From Candidatus Shapirobacteria bacterium (GTDB lineage Bacteria; Patescibacteriota; Microgenomatia; UBA12405): DNA of 36,493 bases. Location of the stretch: the NCBI GenBank assembly GCA_018062705.1, contig JAGORQ010000009.1, positions 1-36,493 of the forward strand, in the 5' to 3' direction. The notes below the pieces were generated by a model that did no database searches, was not told the DNA's origin, and saw only the letters and a program-made list of their open reading frames with translations. Position 1 is the stretch's first letter; every line of letters begins with the position of its first letter. The position numbers and the translations under genes are program-made. Positions 5,030 to 30,406 of this stretch are shown one piece after another.

Positions 5030-5101
5030 GCGCCTATAGCTCAATGGATAGAGTAATAGTCTTCGGAACTATTGATGAGGGTTCGATTCCCCCTGGGCGC
5101 A
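5030..5101 (+). tRNA. tRNA-Arg (anticodon TCG)
   Basis: Acceptor GCGCCTA pairs with TGGGCGC, discriminator A. The anticodon stem ATAGT/ACTAT encloses CTTCGGA, anticodon TCG. The T stem GAGGG/CCCCC has one A-C mismatch. CCA is not encoded. Confidence 0.9.
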
Positions 5102-5104
5102 CTA

Positions 5105-5191: not shown

Positions 5192-5243
5192 GGGTCGTTT
5201 CAGCCAGAGGCTGATCCGCCTGTGGCGGAAGCTCAGCTTGTAA
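5192..5243 (+). pseudogene. tRNA-Lys 5' fragment followed by two hairpins
   Basis: The first eight bases of the tRNA-Lys gene (GGGTCGTT) are followed directly by two palindromes, TCAGCCAGAGGCTGA and TCCGCCTGTGGCGGA. A TATAAT box stands at 5169-5174, 17 bases before the fragment. It is the leftmost, most degraded copy of the array that ends in the intact tRNA-Lys at 5735. Confidence 0.6.
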
Positions 5244-5268
5244 CTGGGATAGATTTACTTAACAATTT

Positions 5269-5319
5269 GGGTCGTCAGCTCAGTCGGTAGATCCGCCAGC
5301 TGGCGGACTCTTAAGCGAT
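5269..5319 (+). pseudogene. tRNA-Lys 5' half with hairpin, joined to GIY-YIG gene
   Basis: Acceptor strand and D arm of tRNA-Lys (GGGTCGTCAGCTCAGTCGG) are followed by the palindrome TCCGCCAGCTGGCGGA in place of the 5' anticodon-stem strand, then by CTCTTAAGCGAT of the anticodon loop and 3' stem strand. The next base begins the ATG of the GIY-YIG gene. No T arm or 3' acceptor strand is present, so it cannot make a tRNA. Confidence 0.85.
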
Positions 5320-5586
5320 ATGGAATTTGTTGTCTATGTATTAATTAATTCGGAAACAAATAAAATATATATTGGTCAAACGACTAATTTGGAAAAGAGA
5401 ATTGATCGACATAATGGGTTGTTGGCAAACCGAACAAAAAGCTATACTTCAAAAAATAAAAATATAGGAATTTGGCTTTTGGGATACAAAGAGGTTTTAA
5501 AAACAAGAAAAGAAGCTATAATACGAGAGAAAGAATTGAAAAGTTATCAGGGTAGGCAATTCTTGAAAATAAAGTTGGGTCGTTAG
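5320..5586 (+). CDS. GIY-YIG nuclease family protein nested in tRNA-Lys copies
   Basis: A single-domain GIY-YIG endonuclease of 88 residues. The signature is present as FVVYVLINSETNKIYIGQT (VYV and YIG), followed by NLEKRIDRHN with the conserved Arg, and by the metal-binding Glu in EAIIREKELKSYQ. The ATG directly follows a partial tRNA-Lys copy. The last three codons and the stop (Leu-Gly-Arg-stop) come from the start of the next copy, GGGTCGTTAG. The gene is thus fitted exactly between two tRNA fragments. Such small free-standing proteins cut DNA; homing into the tRNA gene is my inference. The frame is undamaged, so it may be active. Confidence 0.9.
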   Translation: MEFVVYVLINSETNKIYIGQTTNLEKRIDRHNGLLANRTKSYTSKNKNIGIWLLGYKEVLKTRKEAIIREKELKSYQGRQFLKIKLGR

Positions 5587-5734
5587 CTCAGTCGGTAGAT
5601 CCGCCAACTGGCGGACTCTTAAGCGATTACCTTGATATAATTTAATTCTTTGTATGGGTCGTTAGCTCAGTCGGTAGATCCGCCAACTGGCGGACTCTTA
5701 AGCGATTACCTTGATATAATTTAATTCTTTGTAT
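5577..5734 (+). repeat. Two tandem 79-bp units of promoter plus tRNA-Lys 5' half with hairpin
   Basis: Identical units start at 5577 and 5656, and the intact tRNA starts one unit later at 5735. Each has the tRNA-Lys acceptor and D arm, the 16-base palindrome TCCGCCAACTGGCGGA, CTCTTAAGCGATTA from the anticodon arm, and a spacer with TTGATATAAT that can act as the -10 box for the next copy. The palindrome replaces the bases GCAATCGC of the intact gene. Confidence 0.95.
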
Positions 5735-5807
5735 GGGTCGTTAGCTCAGTCGGTAGAGCAATCGCCTCTTAAGCGATTGGTCGTGAGTTCGAGTCTCACA
5801 CGACCCA
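5735..5807 (+). tRNA. tRNA-Lys (anticodon CTT)
   Basis: Intact cloverleaf: acceptor GGGTCGT/ACGACCC, anticodon stem ATCGC/GCGAT with loop CTCTTAA (anticodon CTT), T arm GTGAG-TTCGAGT-CTCAC, discriminator A, no CCA. It is the last member of an array of broken copies and the only complete one. Its -10 box probably lies in the preceding repeat unit (TATAAT near 5714). Confidence 0.95.
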
Positions 5808-5809
5808 CA

Positions 5810-18372: not shown

Positions 18373-18388
18373 GCCGCCATGGTGAAAT
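18373..18388 (+). pseudogene. tRNA-Leu 5' fragment (duplicate of 18510-18525)
   Basis: GTTTTGCCGCCATGGTGAAA with its flanking T at 18368-18388 is repeated exactly at 18505-18525, where it forms the start of the intact tRNA-Leu(CAG). The copies enclose a GIY-YIG remnant. Confidence 0.85.
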
Positions 18389-18390
18389 AA

Positions 18391-18522
18391 AACCTTCTTC
18401 CTTTTGGTATTGTGTTTGTTCAGATTTGTAATAGTTATACTGAAGCCAGGAAATTAGAAAAATATTTAAAATCTGGAAGTGGACGTGAGATAATACATGA
18501 GATAGTTTTGCCGCCATGGTGA
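18391..18522 (+). pseudogene. GIY-YIG nuclease remnant (C-terminal end) between tRNA-Leu copies
   Basis: The frame reads NLLPFGIVFVQICNSYTEAR then KLEKYLKSGSGREIIHEIV and ends with LPPW-stop. EAR..EKYLKSGSGRE is the usual last helix of small GIY-YIG proteins and contains the metal-binding Glu. The N-terminal GIY and YIG strands are gone; the frame begins right after a TAA. The last residues and the TGA stop are encoded by the first bases of tRNA-Leu(CAG) (GCCGCCATGGTGA), the same joint as in the tRNA-Lys array. Confidence 0.75.
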
Positions 18523-18591
18523 AATTGGTATACACGTACGTTTCAGAAGCGTATGCCGTAAGGCGTGGAAGTTCGAGTCTTCTTGGCGGCA
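18510..18591 (+). tRNA. tRNA-Leu (anticodon CAG)
   Basis: Class II tRNA with acceptor GCCGCCA/TGGCGGC and discriminator A. The anticodon stem TACGT/GCGTA (one T-G pair) encloses TTCAGAA, anticodon CAG. The long variable arm contains ATGCCGTAAGGCGT, as in the Leu(TAG) gene. No CCA. Confidence 0.95.
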
Positions 18592-18594
18592 CTG

Positions 18595-19764: not shown

Positions 19765-19777
19765 TCCGCCTGTGGCG
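19763..19777. repeat. Palindrome of TCCGCC type before tRNA-Phe
   Basis: AGTCCGCCTGTGGCGAGACA contains TCCGCCTGTGGCG, nearly the same hairpin as 5215-5229 (TCCGCCTGTGGCGGA) in the tRNA-Lys array. It stands seven bases before the tRNA-Phe gene. Confidence 0.6.
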
Positions 19778-19783
19778 AGACAA

Positions 19784-19952: not shown

Positions 19953-20106
19953 GCGAGAGTAGCTCAATTGGTTAGGCGCCCCGCTAAGCGGGGAGGTCGC
20001 AGTTTAAGCTATGATCGTTTTAACAATTTGCGAGAGTAGCTCAATTGGTTAGGCGCCCCGCTAAGCGGGGAGGTCGCAGTTTAAGCTATGATCGTTTTAA
20101 CAATTT
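19953..20106 (+). repeat. Two tandem 77-bp units with tRNA-Gly 5' part and hairpin
   Basis: Identical units start at 19953 and 20030; the intact tRNA-Gly starts one unit later at 20107. Each begins GCGAGAGTAGCTCAATTGGT like the tRNA, then carries the hairpin CCCCGCTAAGCGGGG where the anticodon arm should be, then AGGTCGC and a degenerate T-arm region. It ends TTTTAACAATTT, also the leader of the first unit. No 3' acceptor strand exists. Confidence 0.95.
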
Positions 20107-20179
20107 GCGAGAGTAGCTCAATTGGTGGAGCGTCTCCTTGCCAAGGAGAAGGTCGCGGGTTCGAGTCCCGTCTCTCGCT
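20107..20179 (+). tRNA. tRNA-Gly (anticodon GCC)
   Basis: Acceptor GCGAGAG/CTCTCGC, discriminator T, anticodon stem TCTCC/GGAGA with loop TTGCCAA (anticodon GCC), T arm GCGGG-TTCGAGT-CCCGT. It is the only full copy in a row of partial ones. The next gene's ATG is three bases after its end. Confidence 0.95.
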
Positions 20180-20181
20180 CA

Positions 20182-20433
20182 ATGTACTTTGTGTATGTGT
20201 TGCAAAGTTTAAATACCGGAAAGTATTACATAGGATTTACTGAAAATATTCAAAGAAGATTTCTAGAACATCAAAGTGGTAATTCGGTATTTGACCGAAC
20301 ATATGGACCTTTTTCCTTGGTACTTACCGAAAAATATTCGGATAAAAAGCTGGCGATGAAACGGGAGAAACAAATTAAAAGCTATAAAGGTGGAAACAGT
20401 TTTAAAGTGTTGATTGGTGGAGTGCCCCGCTAA
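20182..20433 (+). CDS. GIY-YIG nuclease family protein directly after tRNA-Gly
   Basis: An 83-residue single-domain GIY-YIG endonuclease: YFVYVLQSLNTGKYYIGFTE (VYV and YIG), NIQRRFLEHQ with the conserved Arg and His, and MKREKQIKSYKGG with the metal Glu. The start ATG is three bases after the tRNA-Gly 3' end. The frame also runs backward through the tRNA, but those codons are not protein-like. The last codons (Gly-Gly-Val-Pro-Arg-stop) lie in a second, hairpin-bearing copy of the tRNA middle part (GGTGGAGTGCCCCGCTAA). So both ends join tRNA sequence. The frame is intact and no helper gene is nearby. Insertion into the tRNA gene followed by repeat-driven duplication is the likely origin. Confidence 0.9.
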   Translation: MYFVYVLQSLNTGKYYIGFTENIQRRFLEHQSGNSVFDRTYGPFSLVLTEKYSDKKLAMKREKQIKSYKGGNSFKVLIGGVPR

Positions 20434-20469
20434 GCGGGGAGGTCGCGGGTTCGAGTCCCGTCTCTCGCT
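20413..20469 (+). pseudogene. tRNA-Gly 3' part with hairpin in place of anticodon arm
   Basis: From the D loop (ATTGGTGGAG) on, the sequence matches tRNA-Gly(GCC), except that the anticodon arm is CCCCGCTAAGCGGGG. The variable loop, T arm and 3' acceptor strand (CTCTCGCT) are intact. The 5' acceptor strand is missing. It overlaps the end of the GIY-YIG gene. Confidence 0.9.
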
Positions 20470-20471
20470 CA

Positions 20472-20609
20472 ATGTACTTTGTGTATGTGTTGCAAAGTTT
20501 AAATACCGGAAAGTATTACATAGGATTTACTGAAAATATTCAAAGAAGATTTCTATAACATCAAAGTGGTAATCACTTTAAGTTATTGATTGGTGGAGCG
20601 CCCCGCTAA
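20472..20609 (+). pseudogene. Deleted and nonsense-mutated copy of the tRNA-Gly GIY-YIG gene
   Basis: The first 84 bases are the same as in the gene at 20182, starting MYFVYVLQSLNTGKYYIGFT. At codon 29 GAA has become TAA (20556-20558). About 110 bases of the centre, including the metal-binding Glu, are deleted in frame, and the end again reads LLIGGAPR-stop inside a tRNA-derived hairpin. It is a non-coding deletion derivative with both ends kept. Confidence 0.9.
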
Positions 20610-20627
20610 GCGGGGAGGTCGCGGGTT
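20589..20627 (+). pseudogene. Third hairpin-bearing tRNA-Gly fragment
   Basis: ATTGGTGGAGCG, then CCCCGCTAAGCGGGG, then AGGTCGCGGGTT of the T arm; the match to tRNA-Gly is lost at 20628. It marks the right border of the array, 25 bases before the lipoprotein gene's stop. Confidence 0.85.
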
Positions 20628-20652
20628 GTTGCTTGTCTAACGCTTAGAATAT

Positions 20653-23424: not shown

Positions 23425-23495
23425 TGCCCCATCGTCTAATGGTAGGACAGCACCCTTTGGAGGTGTTTATTGTGGTTCAAATCCATGTGGGGCAA
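23425..23495 (+). tRNA. tRNA-Gln (anticodon TTG)
   Basis: Acceptor TGCCCCA/TGGGGCA with discriminator A. The anticodon stem GCACC/GGTGT encloses CTTTGGA, anticodon TTG. T arm TGTGG-TTCAAAT-CCATG with a weak last pair. First pair T-A, as common in tRNA-Gln. Confidence 0.92.
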
Positions 23496-23497
23496 CT

Positions 23498-23600
23498 GTT
23501 CGACTCGTCGCTCGTTACACTCGTGACTCGCTCACAGCTATAGCCTATTATTTAGGAATAAATGTTTGGATGTCTGGTCGAACATCCTGAGCGAAGTCGA
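23498..23600. repeat. Palindromic repeats between tRNA-Gln and a GIY-YIG pseudogene
   Basis: Two known-looking motifs are seen: GACTCGTCGCTCGTTACACT continuing CGTGACTCGCTCAC (self-complementary in part, 23502-23536), and TCGAACATCCTGAGCGAAG with TCGAAGGA (23578-23603), a palindrome of the CCTGAGCGAAGTCGAAGG class that I recall next to GIY-YIG genes in many uncultured bacteria. Confidence 0.6.
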
Positions 23601-23608
23601 AGGATAGT

Positions 23609-23813
23609 ATGTATTATGTCTATTTTTTACGAAGTTCCGATAACAGCCTTTATACTGGTCAAACGAATAATCTCGAGAAAAGGATTAAGGCTTGATGAAA
23701 GTTTTAAATTAGTTTACAAAGAGGAATTTTTAACAAGATTAGATTCGATGCGAAGAGAAAAGCAGTTAAAAGGTTGGACAAGAACCAAATTAGAGTTATT
23801 AAAGAAGCTATAA
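23609..23813 (+). pseudogene. Frameshifted, internally deleted GIY-YIG nuclease gene
   Basis: The ATG frame reads MYYVYFLRSSDNSLYTGQTN and NLEKRIKA-stop, the normal first half with GIY (VYF) and YIG (YTG) motifs and the conserved Arg. After the TGA, a different frame continues with FKLVYKEEFLTRLDSMRREK and QLKGWTRTKLELLKK, the normal second half with the metal-binding Glu. The residues usual between (HN...AKYT...RRP) are missing, so there was a deletion that also shifted the frame. It stands 113 bases after tRNA-Gln. Confidence 0.88.
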
Positions 23814-30103: not shown

Positions 30104-30406
30104 ATGGTTCTAAAAACTAAATATTTTTCGGTTTATATAATGGCCAGTCAGAAAAACGGAACTTTGTATACAGGTGTTACCTCAAATTTAGCCAGAAGAG
30201 TTTACGAACATAAAACAGGAATAGTCGAAGGTTTTACTGATCGATATTCTGTTCACAATCTAGTTTATTTTGAAGTCCATGAAGATCCAATATCAGCGAT
30301 TATTCGAGAAAAACAAATTAAAAAATGGAAACGGGAGTGGAAAATAAAACTGATTGAAACAAAAAATCCAGAATGGATTGATCTATACAAAGATATTGTG
30401 TGGTGA
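30104..30406 (+). CDS. GIY-YIG nuclease family protein flanked by palindromes
   Basis: A 100-residue endonuclease of the YhbQ-like group: KYFSVYIMASQKNGTLYTGV (VYI and YTG), NLARRVYEHK with the conserved Arg and His, DRYSVHNLVYFEVHEDPISA, and IIREKQIKKWKREWK with the metal Glu; the end NPEWIDLY is typical of this subgroup. It lies inside a cassette of ATTCCCGC-type palindromes, bounded left by the rsmI stop and right by a displaced rsmI 3' end. The frame is intact. It is of a different subgroup from the tRNA-associated copies. It probably cuts DNA during spread of the cassette (inference); repair function is the other choice. Confidence 0.92.
   Translation: MVLKTKYFSVYIMASQKNGTLYTGVTSNLARRVYEHKTGIVEGFTDRYSVHNLVYFEVHEDPISAIIREKQIKKWKREWKIKLIETKNPEWIDLYKDIVW

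Follow-up and report, generated by a model that had tools for sequence, protein, structure and literature searches.

What is a complete GIY-YIG gene doing among broken copies of a tRNA-Lys gene? The question is raised by a stretch of 36,493 nucleotides from a Candidatus Shapirobacteria bacterium (the window), which is contig C15 of a 1.07-Mb genome. A preliminary description had reported four 5' tRNA-Lys fragments ahead of one intact copy, a hairpin in three of the copies, two exact 79-bp tandem repeats and a complete GIY-YIG gene between copies two and three, touching one fragment with its ATG and sharing its TAG stop with the next. All of these features are recovered (Table 1). The open reading frame (ORF) is placed between fragments 2 and 3, its start codon abuts fragment 2, and its stop codon (5584-5586) is the TAG of GGGTCGTTAGCTC.

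Table 1. Coordinates of the tRNA-Lys locus and of further elements on the same contig.
Feature	Position	Strand	Remarks
tRNA-Arg(TCG)	5030..5102	+	conserved left neighbour; in empty relatives tRNA-Lys directly follows
tRNA-Lys 5' fragment 1	5192..5236	+	GGGTCGTT, two palindromes (5200-5214, 5215-5229) and AGCTCAG
tRNA-Lys 5' fragment 2	5269..5319	+	nt 1-23, palindrome, CTCTTAAGCGAT; left border of type A element
Palindrome TCCGCCAGCTGGCGGA	5292..5307		in place of tRNA nt 24-31; compensatory changes across loci
GIY-YIG ORF, 88 aa, single-domain, Lys clade	5320..5586	+	Pfam, tree, AF2 pLDDT 90
Tandem unit 1	5576..5654	+	79 bp; fragment 3 (5577-5628, palindrome 5600-5615) and leader
Tandem unit 2	5655..5733	+	identical to unit 1; fragment 4 (5656-5707, palindrome 5679-5694) and leader
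Intact tRNA-Lys(CTT)	5735..5808	+	
Decayed type A element at tRNA-Leu(CAG)	18373..18592	+	nt 1-16 fragment, truncated GIY-YIG C-terminus
Two 77-bp tandem units at tRNA-Gly	19953..20106	+	5' fragments, CCCCGCTAAGCGGGG in place of anticodon arm
Intact tRNA-Gly(GCC)	20107..20180	+	
GIY-YIG ORF, 83 aa, type B	20182..20433	+	ATG follows tRNA 3' end
tRNA-Gly 3' fragment	20413..20470	+	CCCCGCTAAGCGGGG in place of anticodon arm
Decayed second tRNA-Gly copy	20472..20630	+	truncated GIY-YIG and further tRNA-Gly/hairpin remnant
tRNA-Gln(TTG), then frameshifted GIY-YIG remnant (23609-23812)	23425..23812	+	

In fragments 2-4 a 16-nt palindrome stands in place of GCAATCGC, flanked by ..GGTAGA and CTCTTAAGCG. 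The sequence TCCGCC(AG/AA)CTGGCGGA occurs at 5292, 5600 and 5679 and is absent from the rest of the window (6 strand-matches against 0.04 expected; 0 of 100 shuffles). Both palindromes of fragment 1 differ from those of the other three copies and lie within GGGTCGTT/AGCTCAG without any loss of tRNA sequence; the same design is found upstream of tRNA-Lys in genome G002 (locus L183). The letters of a TATAAT box, noted earlier, are literally present in the 79-bp unit, but a promoter scan of the unit gave nothing above chance. The window array comes from a short-read metagenome-assembled genome (MAG), and the number of its tandem copies is uncertain; the architecture is secure, because it is seen again in about 100 independent assemblies, one of which is the single-contig 1.02-Mb genome G050. 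The exactness of the tandem units, and the N gaps inside the arrays of L010 and L221, might suggest an assembly artefact of short-read metagenomes, but against this recurrence such an artefact is extremely improbable.

The 88-aa protein matches Pfam PF01541 (E=1.3e-13), GIY-YIG being the only domain found, and its AF2 model has a pLDDT of 90. The catalytic residues Y6, Y17, G19, R27 and E70 are invariant in two family alignments, and purifying selection acts on the ORFs (pN/pS 0.12-0.27 in nine usable close pairs, the pair L048/L050 being left out of dN/dS owing to its odd reading frame). The nearest structures and profiles are UPF0213, Slx1, the I-TevI catalytic domain and phage homing endonucleases. 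Hits to PHROG homing endonucleases cover the GIY-YIG part only, and PADLOC gave weak similarity confined to the GIY-YIG domain. A search of 50,697 phage records with the window protein returned no match at E 1e-5 and viral contigs yielded six short weak matches, so carriage by phages is unsupported.

Queried with the window protein, 45 of 57 relatives give matches. Among the distinct small GIY-YIG proteins at the examined loci of these relatives, 45 of 74 are encoded within 200 bp of an intact tRNA gene, compared with an expectation of about 3.7% that is derived from tRNA density, the loci being phylogenetically non-independent and the binomial p-value indicative only. A scan of GTDB genomes identified 80 loci in Microgenomates, Parcubacteria, Saccharibacteria and WWE3, and also in MAGs labelled Omnitrophota, Nitrospiraceae, Deltaproteobacteria, Ignavibacteriae, Neomarinimicrobiota, Cloacimonadota and others; in this second set the proteins within 200 bp of a tRNA number 70 of 86. 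The tRNA-adjacent genes are small (80-100 aa) and occur in Patescibacteria (CPR) and some other phyla, and in the combined set every tRNA within 200 bp shares the strand of the GIY-YIG gene (110/110). The association can also be used for prediction: when pseudo-tRNA motifs were searched for in 380 genomes of the phylum, three new genomes were found with the Lys motif and seven with the Asn motif (one in both), and a GIY-YIG ORF adjoins nine of these ten hits, the tenth stopping at a contig edge. The link between GIY-YIG genes and tRNA fragments in other genomes, on which the preliminary description had staked its reading in advance, is present in many genomes.

The GIY-YIG protein tree tracks the tRNA species. 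In a tree of 154 proteins and 78 columns, the deep branching of which is weak owing to the short alignment, 25 of the 27 members of the Lys clade (SH-aLRT 96) are found at tRNA-Lys, and all 31 callable tRNAs of the Asn clade are tRNA-Asn. Ten further members of the Asn clade have no called tRNA; several of their loci lie at a contig edge, and others are tRNA-Asn genes with an intron, which ARAGORN misses. The Gln clade has a palindrome family of its own. The clustering of tRNA labels on the tree was matched by none of 200 shuffles.

Intron-split tRNA-Asn genes are found at L128, L153, L159 and L160, plus the new loci L220 and L221. Rfam recognises the group I intron in L128, L153, L159 and L220, and sequence similarity identifies it in L160 and L221. 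A tRNA-Asn with an anticodon-loop intron stands beside a GIY-YIG ORF at L002:1877-2128 (contig C8 of the window's own genome), L159, L220, L221, L128 and L153, and at some tRNA-Asn targets the separate group I intron lies downstream of the ORF. By analogy with collaborative homing, an intron in the anticodon loop could block the putative nuclease site.

A functional tRNA is retained beside the elements, as had been proposed, but it is not always downstream, for the elements occur in two orders. Type A runs from the tRNA 5' part through the palindrome, a tRNA stub, the ATG and the rest of the ORF to a short spacer and the intact tRNA, whereas in type B (the window tRNA-Gly, L010, L011, L094, L112 and L149) the intact tRNA comes first, followed by the ORF and a downstream tRNA 3' part with the palindrome. 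Similarity to the cognate tRNA in the far flank exceeds the threshold, set at the 95% point of the reversed flank, in 73 of 81 type A loci and 17 of 27 of type B. ORFs frequently borrow their stop codon from the tRNA (window 5584-5586; L010, L011 and L012). The first 13 nt of the fragment show a median of 0 mismatches to the host's own tRNA, compared with 3 to the same tRNA of other hosts.

The palindrome is GC-rich and either takes the place of the D or anticodon arm or breaks into it, at a position that depends on the clade, and TCCGCCAGCTGGCGGA is nearly constant across phyla. The type A junction of the Lys clade reads ..GGTAGA / TCCGCCAGCTGGCGGA / CTTTTAAGC.. and that of the Asn clade ..TAGCTC / TCCGCCAGCTGGCGGA / GGTAGAGC... 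The anticodon arm, earlier taken to be the site, is the disabled arm in the Lys clade, but in the Asn clade and others the D-arm is affected. The Lys clade holds both types, with the palindrome at the identical tRNA position in each. Across 14 palindrome variants, 98.8% of pairs hold and two-sided changes are seen at four of the six pairs (0 of 500 shuffles); these variants were picked as distinct types, and the figures show that pairing is kept and do not count events. RNA folding of the fragments is only weakly better than that of shuffles and therefore gives no argument for a structured decoy RNA. The palindrome cannot serve solely as a translation-control hairpin, as in the T4 seg genes, since it comes after the ORF in type B.

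Empty tRNA loci had been expected in relatives, and they are found in G024, G031 and G006. The tRNA cluster Leu(TAG)/Arg(TCT)/Arg(TCG)/Lys(CTT) is conserved in the family; in G024 Lys directly follows Arg, and G000 has the whole insertion at that place. G021 is filled and G031 of the same genus empty, the type B insert beginning at the tRNA end. In a further same-genus comparison, with G006, the event in G028 is ORF-less and consists of a palindrome and a tandem copy of the leader and tRNA 5' part. At the identical point of tRNA-Lys, an independent type B element is found in G002, its palindrome being a different one (CCCTCCGACTCGGAGGG). In these comparisons of filled loci with empty relatives, which are between species (within one genus for G021/G031), the GIY-YIG ORF is all that the insert contains besides tRNA copies. 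A homing endonuclease gene is expected to occupy a fixed site for which relatives have empty alleles, and this is the pattern observed.

Arrays are formed by the 79-bp and 77-bp units of the window and at L010, and by whole elements at L155 and L221, while solo insertions lacking the ORF are found in G028 (vs G006), L174, L183 and L192. On the window itself, the stop codon TAA of the ORF at tRNA-Gly lies inside the hairpin of the 3' tRNA-Gly fragment, and the decayed type A element at tRNA-Leu includes an intact tRNA-Leu at 18510-18592. Taken together, the empty sites, the arrays and the decayed copies are consistent with insertion that has occurred repeatedly. Upstream of tRNA-Arg(TCT) in G006 (L182) are two tandem tRNA-Arg fragments in which TCCGATGTTCATCGGA replaces the anticodon arm, with no ORF.

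We consider it probable that these loci are selfish homing elements that target tRNA genes, one tRNA species per clade, by means of a free-standing, single-domain GIY-YIG protein. The GIY-YIG protein presumably cleaves the DNA of the tRNA gene. In an element-free allele or cell it would break the uninterrupted gene at a point X that differs by clade, lying between nt 23 and 32 of tRNA-Lys and in the D-arm of tRNA-Asn. Recombinational repair templated by the element-bearing allele would then copy the ORF together with a second tRNA copy, leaving one tRNA gene whole and the other as a truncated pseudo-copy with the palindrome at X; which of the flanking copies is disabled would set type A or type B. 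The homology arms abut X on both sides, which fits a break at X that is repaired from the element allele, and the copied stretch would bring the tRNA half required to rebuild the gene. The palindrome would render the pseudo-copy uncuttable. The intact copy keeps X unchanged and is perhaps nicked occasionally; unequal repair of such self-inflicted damage would create further pseudo-copy units, and so arrays like those of 79-bp and 77-bp units, that of L010 and the whole-element ones of L155 and L221. The tRNA promoter would drive the ORF, RNase P/Z would release the tRNA from the transcript, and the element may be transferred between cells.

Some observations sit less easily with homing. According to Pfam, the predicted nuclease lacks a separate DNA-binding domain for long-site specificity, unlike I-TevI. 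The intact tRNA-Lys of G000 does not differ from the empty G024 allele in its first 49 nt and retains the presumed target, which rules out immunity through a recoded intact tRNA; protection by a changed leader or trailer alone is ruled out in the Lys clade, where types A and B keep opposite flanks. With the target kept in the intact tRNA and both types present in one clade, destruction of the site by insertion fails to explain self-immunity. The stub between palindrome and ORF likewise matches the host tRNA, where pure homing across species would have left donor sequence; this speaks against pure homing and needs within-species homing or gene conversion. GIY-YIG insertions in rRNA genes of CPR bacteria have been judged to lie outside the context of homing (PMC11270868).

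A different and rather unlikely explanation takes the palindrome as the mobile unit, which a hairpin-selective (Slx1-like) GIY-YIG nuclease would insert into hairpin-forming DNA, tRNA genes among it; the ORF-bearing tRNA loci would be the autonomous form and the dispersed palindromes the non-autonomous one. In REP/RAYT systems, which this resembles, a small nuclease gene is associated with dispersed palindromes. RAYTs, however, are Y1 (HUH-type) transposases, and the window family, being GIY-YIG with tRNA copies attached, does not belong with them. Such transposition would account for the dispersal of TCCGCCNNNNGGCGGA (12 copies in the window's own genome and up to 58) and for the ORF-less solo insertions, and Slx1 is among the nearest folds; TCCGCCNNNNGGCGGA is also commoner in genomes with the Lys or Asn clade (p=1e-4; within family 3e-4), although this correlation of counts is confounded by genome relatedness. 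A further point in its favour is that GTCAT(T/C)(C/G) palindromic repeats lie on both sides of a GIY-YIG gene in seven of the eight members of a separate clade, compared with 1 of 79 other GIY-YIG loci and 65 of 5000 random places; this clade may be the autonomous partner of a widespread palindrome family. The dispersed copies in the own genome, however, are not at tRNAs and share no target, and the Lys palindrome is found at one exact tRNA position in many genomes with a whole tRNA copy attached, so that simple palindrome insertion fails to explain the Lys-clade loci. A wider scheme can be put forward tentatively, in which a hairpin-recognising single-domain GIY-YIG protein transfers palindromes, as well as itself, to genes for structured RNAs (tRNA, possibly tmRNA and 23S rRNA), duplicating the target so that one copy survives; each clade would own its tRNA and palindrome family, and a sister clade would move the dispersed GTCATTCC-type palindromes.

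The restriction of each protein clade to one tRNA, and the tandem hairpin units that precede the ORF or tRNA (window, L010), could also recall a toxin-antitoxin or defence system, in which the protein would cut tRNA and the hairpin-bearing fragments would act as decoy or antitoxin RNAs in a type III-like array. We regard this as improbable: in type B the fragment can follow the gene, most loci have a single fragment and no array, a different tRNA stands beside the gene in each clade, and the characterised GIY-YIG families matched are DNA nucleases, the PADLOC similarity being weak and limited to that domain. Slightly less credible still is that the genes are by-standers that land at tRNAs for their promoter, with fragments and palindromes as debris of recombination at tRNA hot spots. 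tRNA genes are indeed common integration sites and solo fragments without an ORF occur, but clade-by-tRNA specificity, the constant position of the palindrome, the 110/110 co-orientation and the prediction of an ORF from the motif in 9 of 10 cases all disfavour chance residence.

Among known systems, the closest in setting is SegB of T-even phages, a free-standing GIY-YIG homing endonuclease in a tRNA cluster, which is reported to act on tRNA-containing DNA and has homologs near tRNAs in many phages, with no isotype preference (PMC2988022, PMC13096335). T6 SegB, near tRNAs, drives recombination-dependent tandem amplification of the tRNA locus (PMC13096335). The window family shares with SegB the free-standing GIY-YIG gene adjoining tRNA genes and the tandem arrays of tRNA segments. 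It differs in being chromosomal and single-domain (80-100 aa), with one tRNA species per clade, and in carrying a truncated tRNA pseudo-copy with a conserved palindrome; it is neither a multi-domain phage protein nor similar to SegB over its full length. With I-TevI and other intron-encoded GIY-YIG enzymes it shares the catalytic domain (1mk0, E=1.2e-4; NCBIfam TIGR01453, E=1.5e-6, below cut-off), but it has no intron around the ORF, no DNA-binding domain and other flanks; no intron was found at the window tRNA-Lys locus, and the gene there is not that of an intron-encoded endonuclease. Upstream of its own gene I-TevI has an operator, a copy of its site that it binds but cannot cut (PMC2988022). 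The type A pseudo-copy may be comparable, although pseudo-copies of the window family can also be downstream. Nor are these tRNA-targeted tyrosine-integrase elements, as the insert has no integrase in the filled loci set against empty relatives, and the repeat may be a 5' or a 3' tRNA part. Nearest in size, sequence and fold are the small UPF0213 GIY-YIG proteins (EF2693, BH0048), for which we know of no comparable association with tRNA fragments. In CPR bacteria, LAGLIDADG insertion elements have been described in rRNA genes, together with few GIY-YIG insertions, none of them in introns, in a study that did not treat tRNA genes (PMC11270868); those elements likewise show homing-type nucleases spread in structural RNA genes of these bacteria, but belong to another nuclease family and to rRNA genes.

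Searches of the open-access literature turned up no account of chromosomal GIY-YIG elements that are associated with tRNA genes and have pseudo-tRNAs, in agreement with the initial impression that no named element family has this form. The tRNA-gene GIY-YIG elements are best read as undescribed free-standing homing elements outside the SegB and intron-endonuclease families. Integrases that rebuild the tRNA end are the usual invaders of tRNA genes; at these loci the invader is apparently a nuclease of only 80-100 residues that brings its own repair of the target and a disabled decoy copy, and its hosts are bacteria about whose mobile elements very little is known. Homing of this kind would explain a large class of "hypothetical GIY-YIG" genes and pseudo-tRNAs, supply clade-specific minimal nucleases with predictable targets, and be a counterpart, on chromosomes, of the tRNA amplification driven by SegB. 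It also brings within reach of a test the idea that the palindromic repeats strewn over these genomes are moved by GIY-YIG nucleases.

The separate GIY-YIG clade mentioned above (8 rows, SH-aLRT 98) comprises window 30104-30406, L145:845-1066, L056, L061, L077, L052, L076 and L074, and its members sit inside dispersed REP-like palindromic repeats (GTCATTCC..GGAATC / GATTCC..GGAATGAC). Other GIY-YIG ORFs lie in different surroundings. At L008 (contig C39 of the own genome) the ORF follows the tmRNA gene on the same strand, and structured RNA genes besides tRNA may thus be targets. The ORFs of L048 and L050 (G042 and G035) lie within a 23S rRNA gene, where no group I intron model matches. In L043 and L044, from the same order, the ORF is found between the inverted repeats ACCCTGTTAAATAA and TTATTCAACAGGGT at two different places, an arrangement like that of a small transposon. 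At L081 and L088 (C5 and C32 of the own genome), TCCGCCAGTTGGCGGA is inside another dispersed repeat (GTCATTGCGA..GGCAATC), seemingly replacing the loop of its hairpin. On the window itself, the near-palindrome TCCGCCTGTGGCGA (19766-19783) stands directly before tRNA-Phe.
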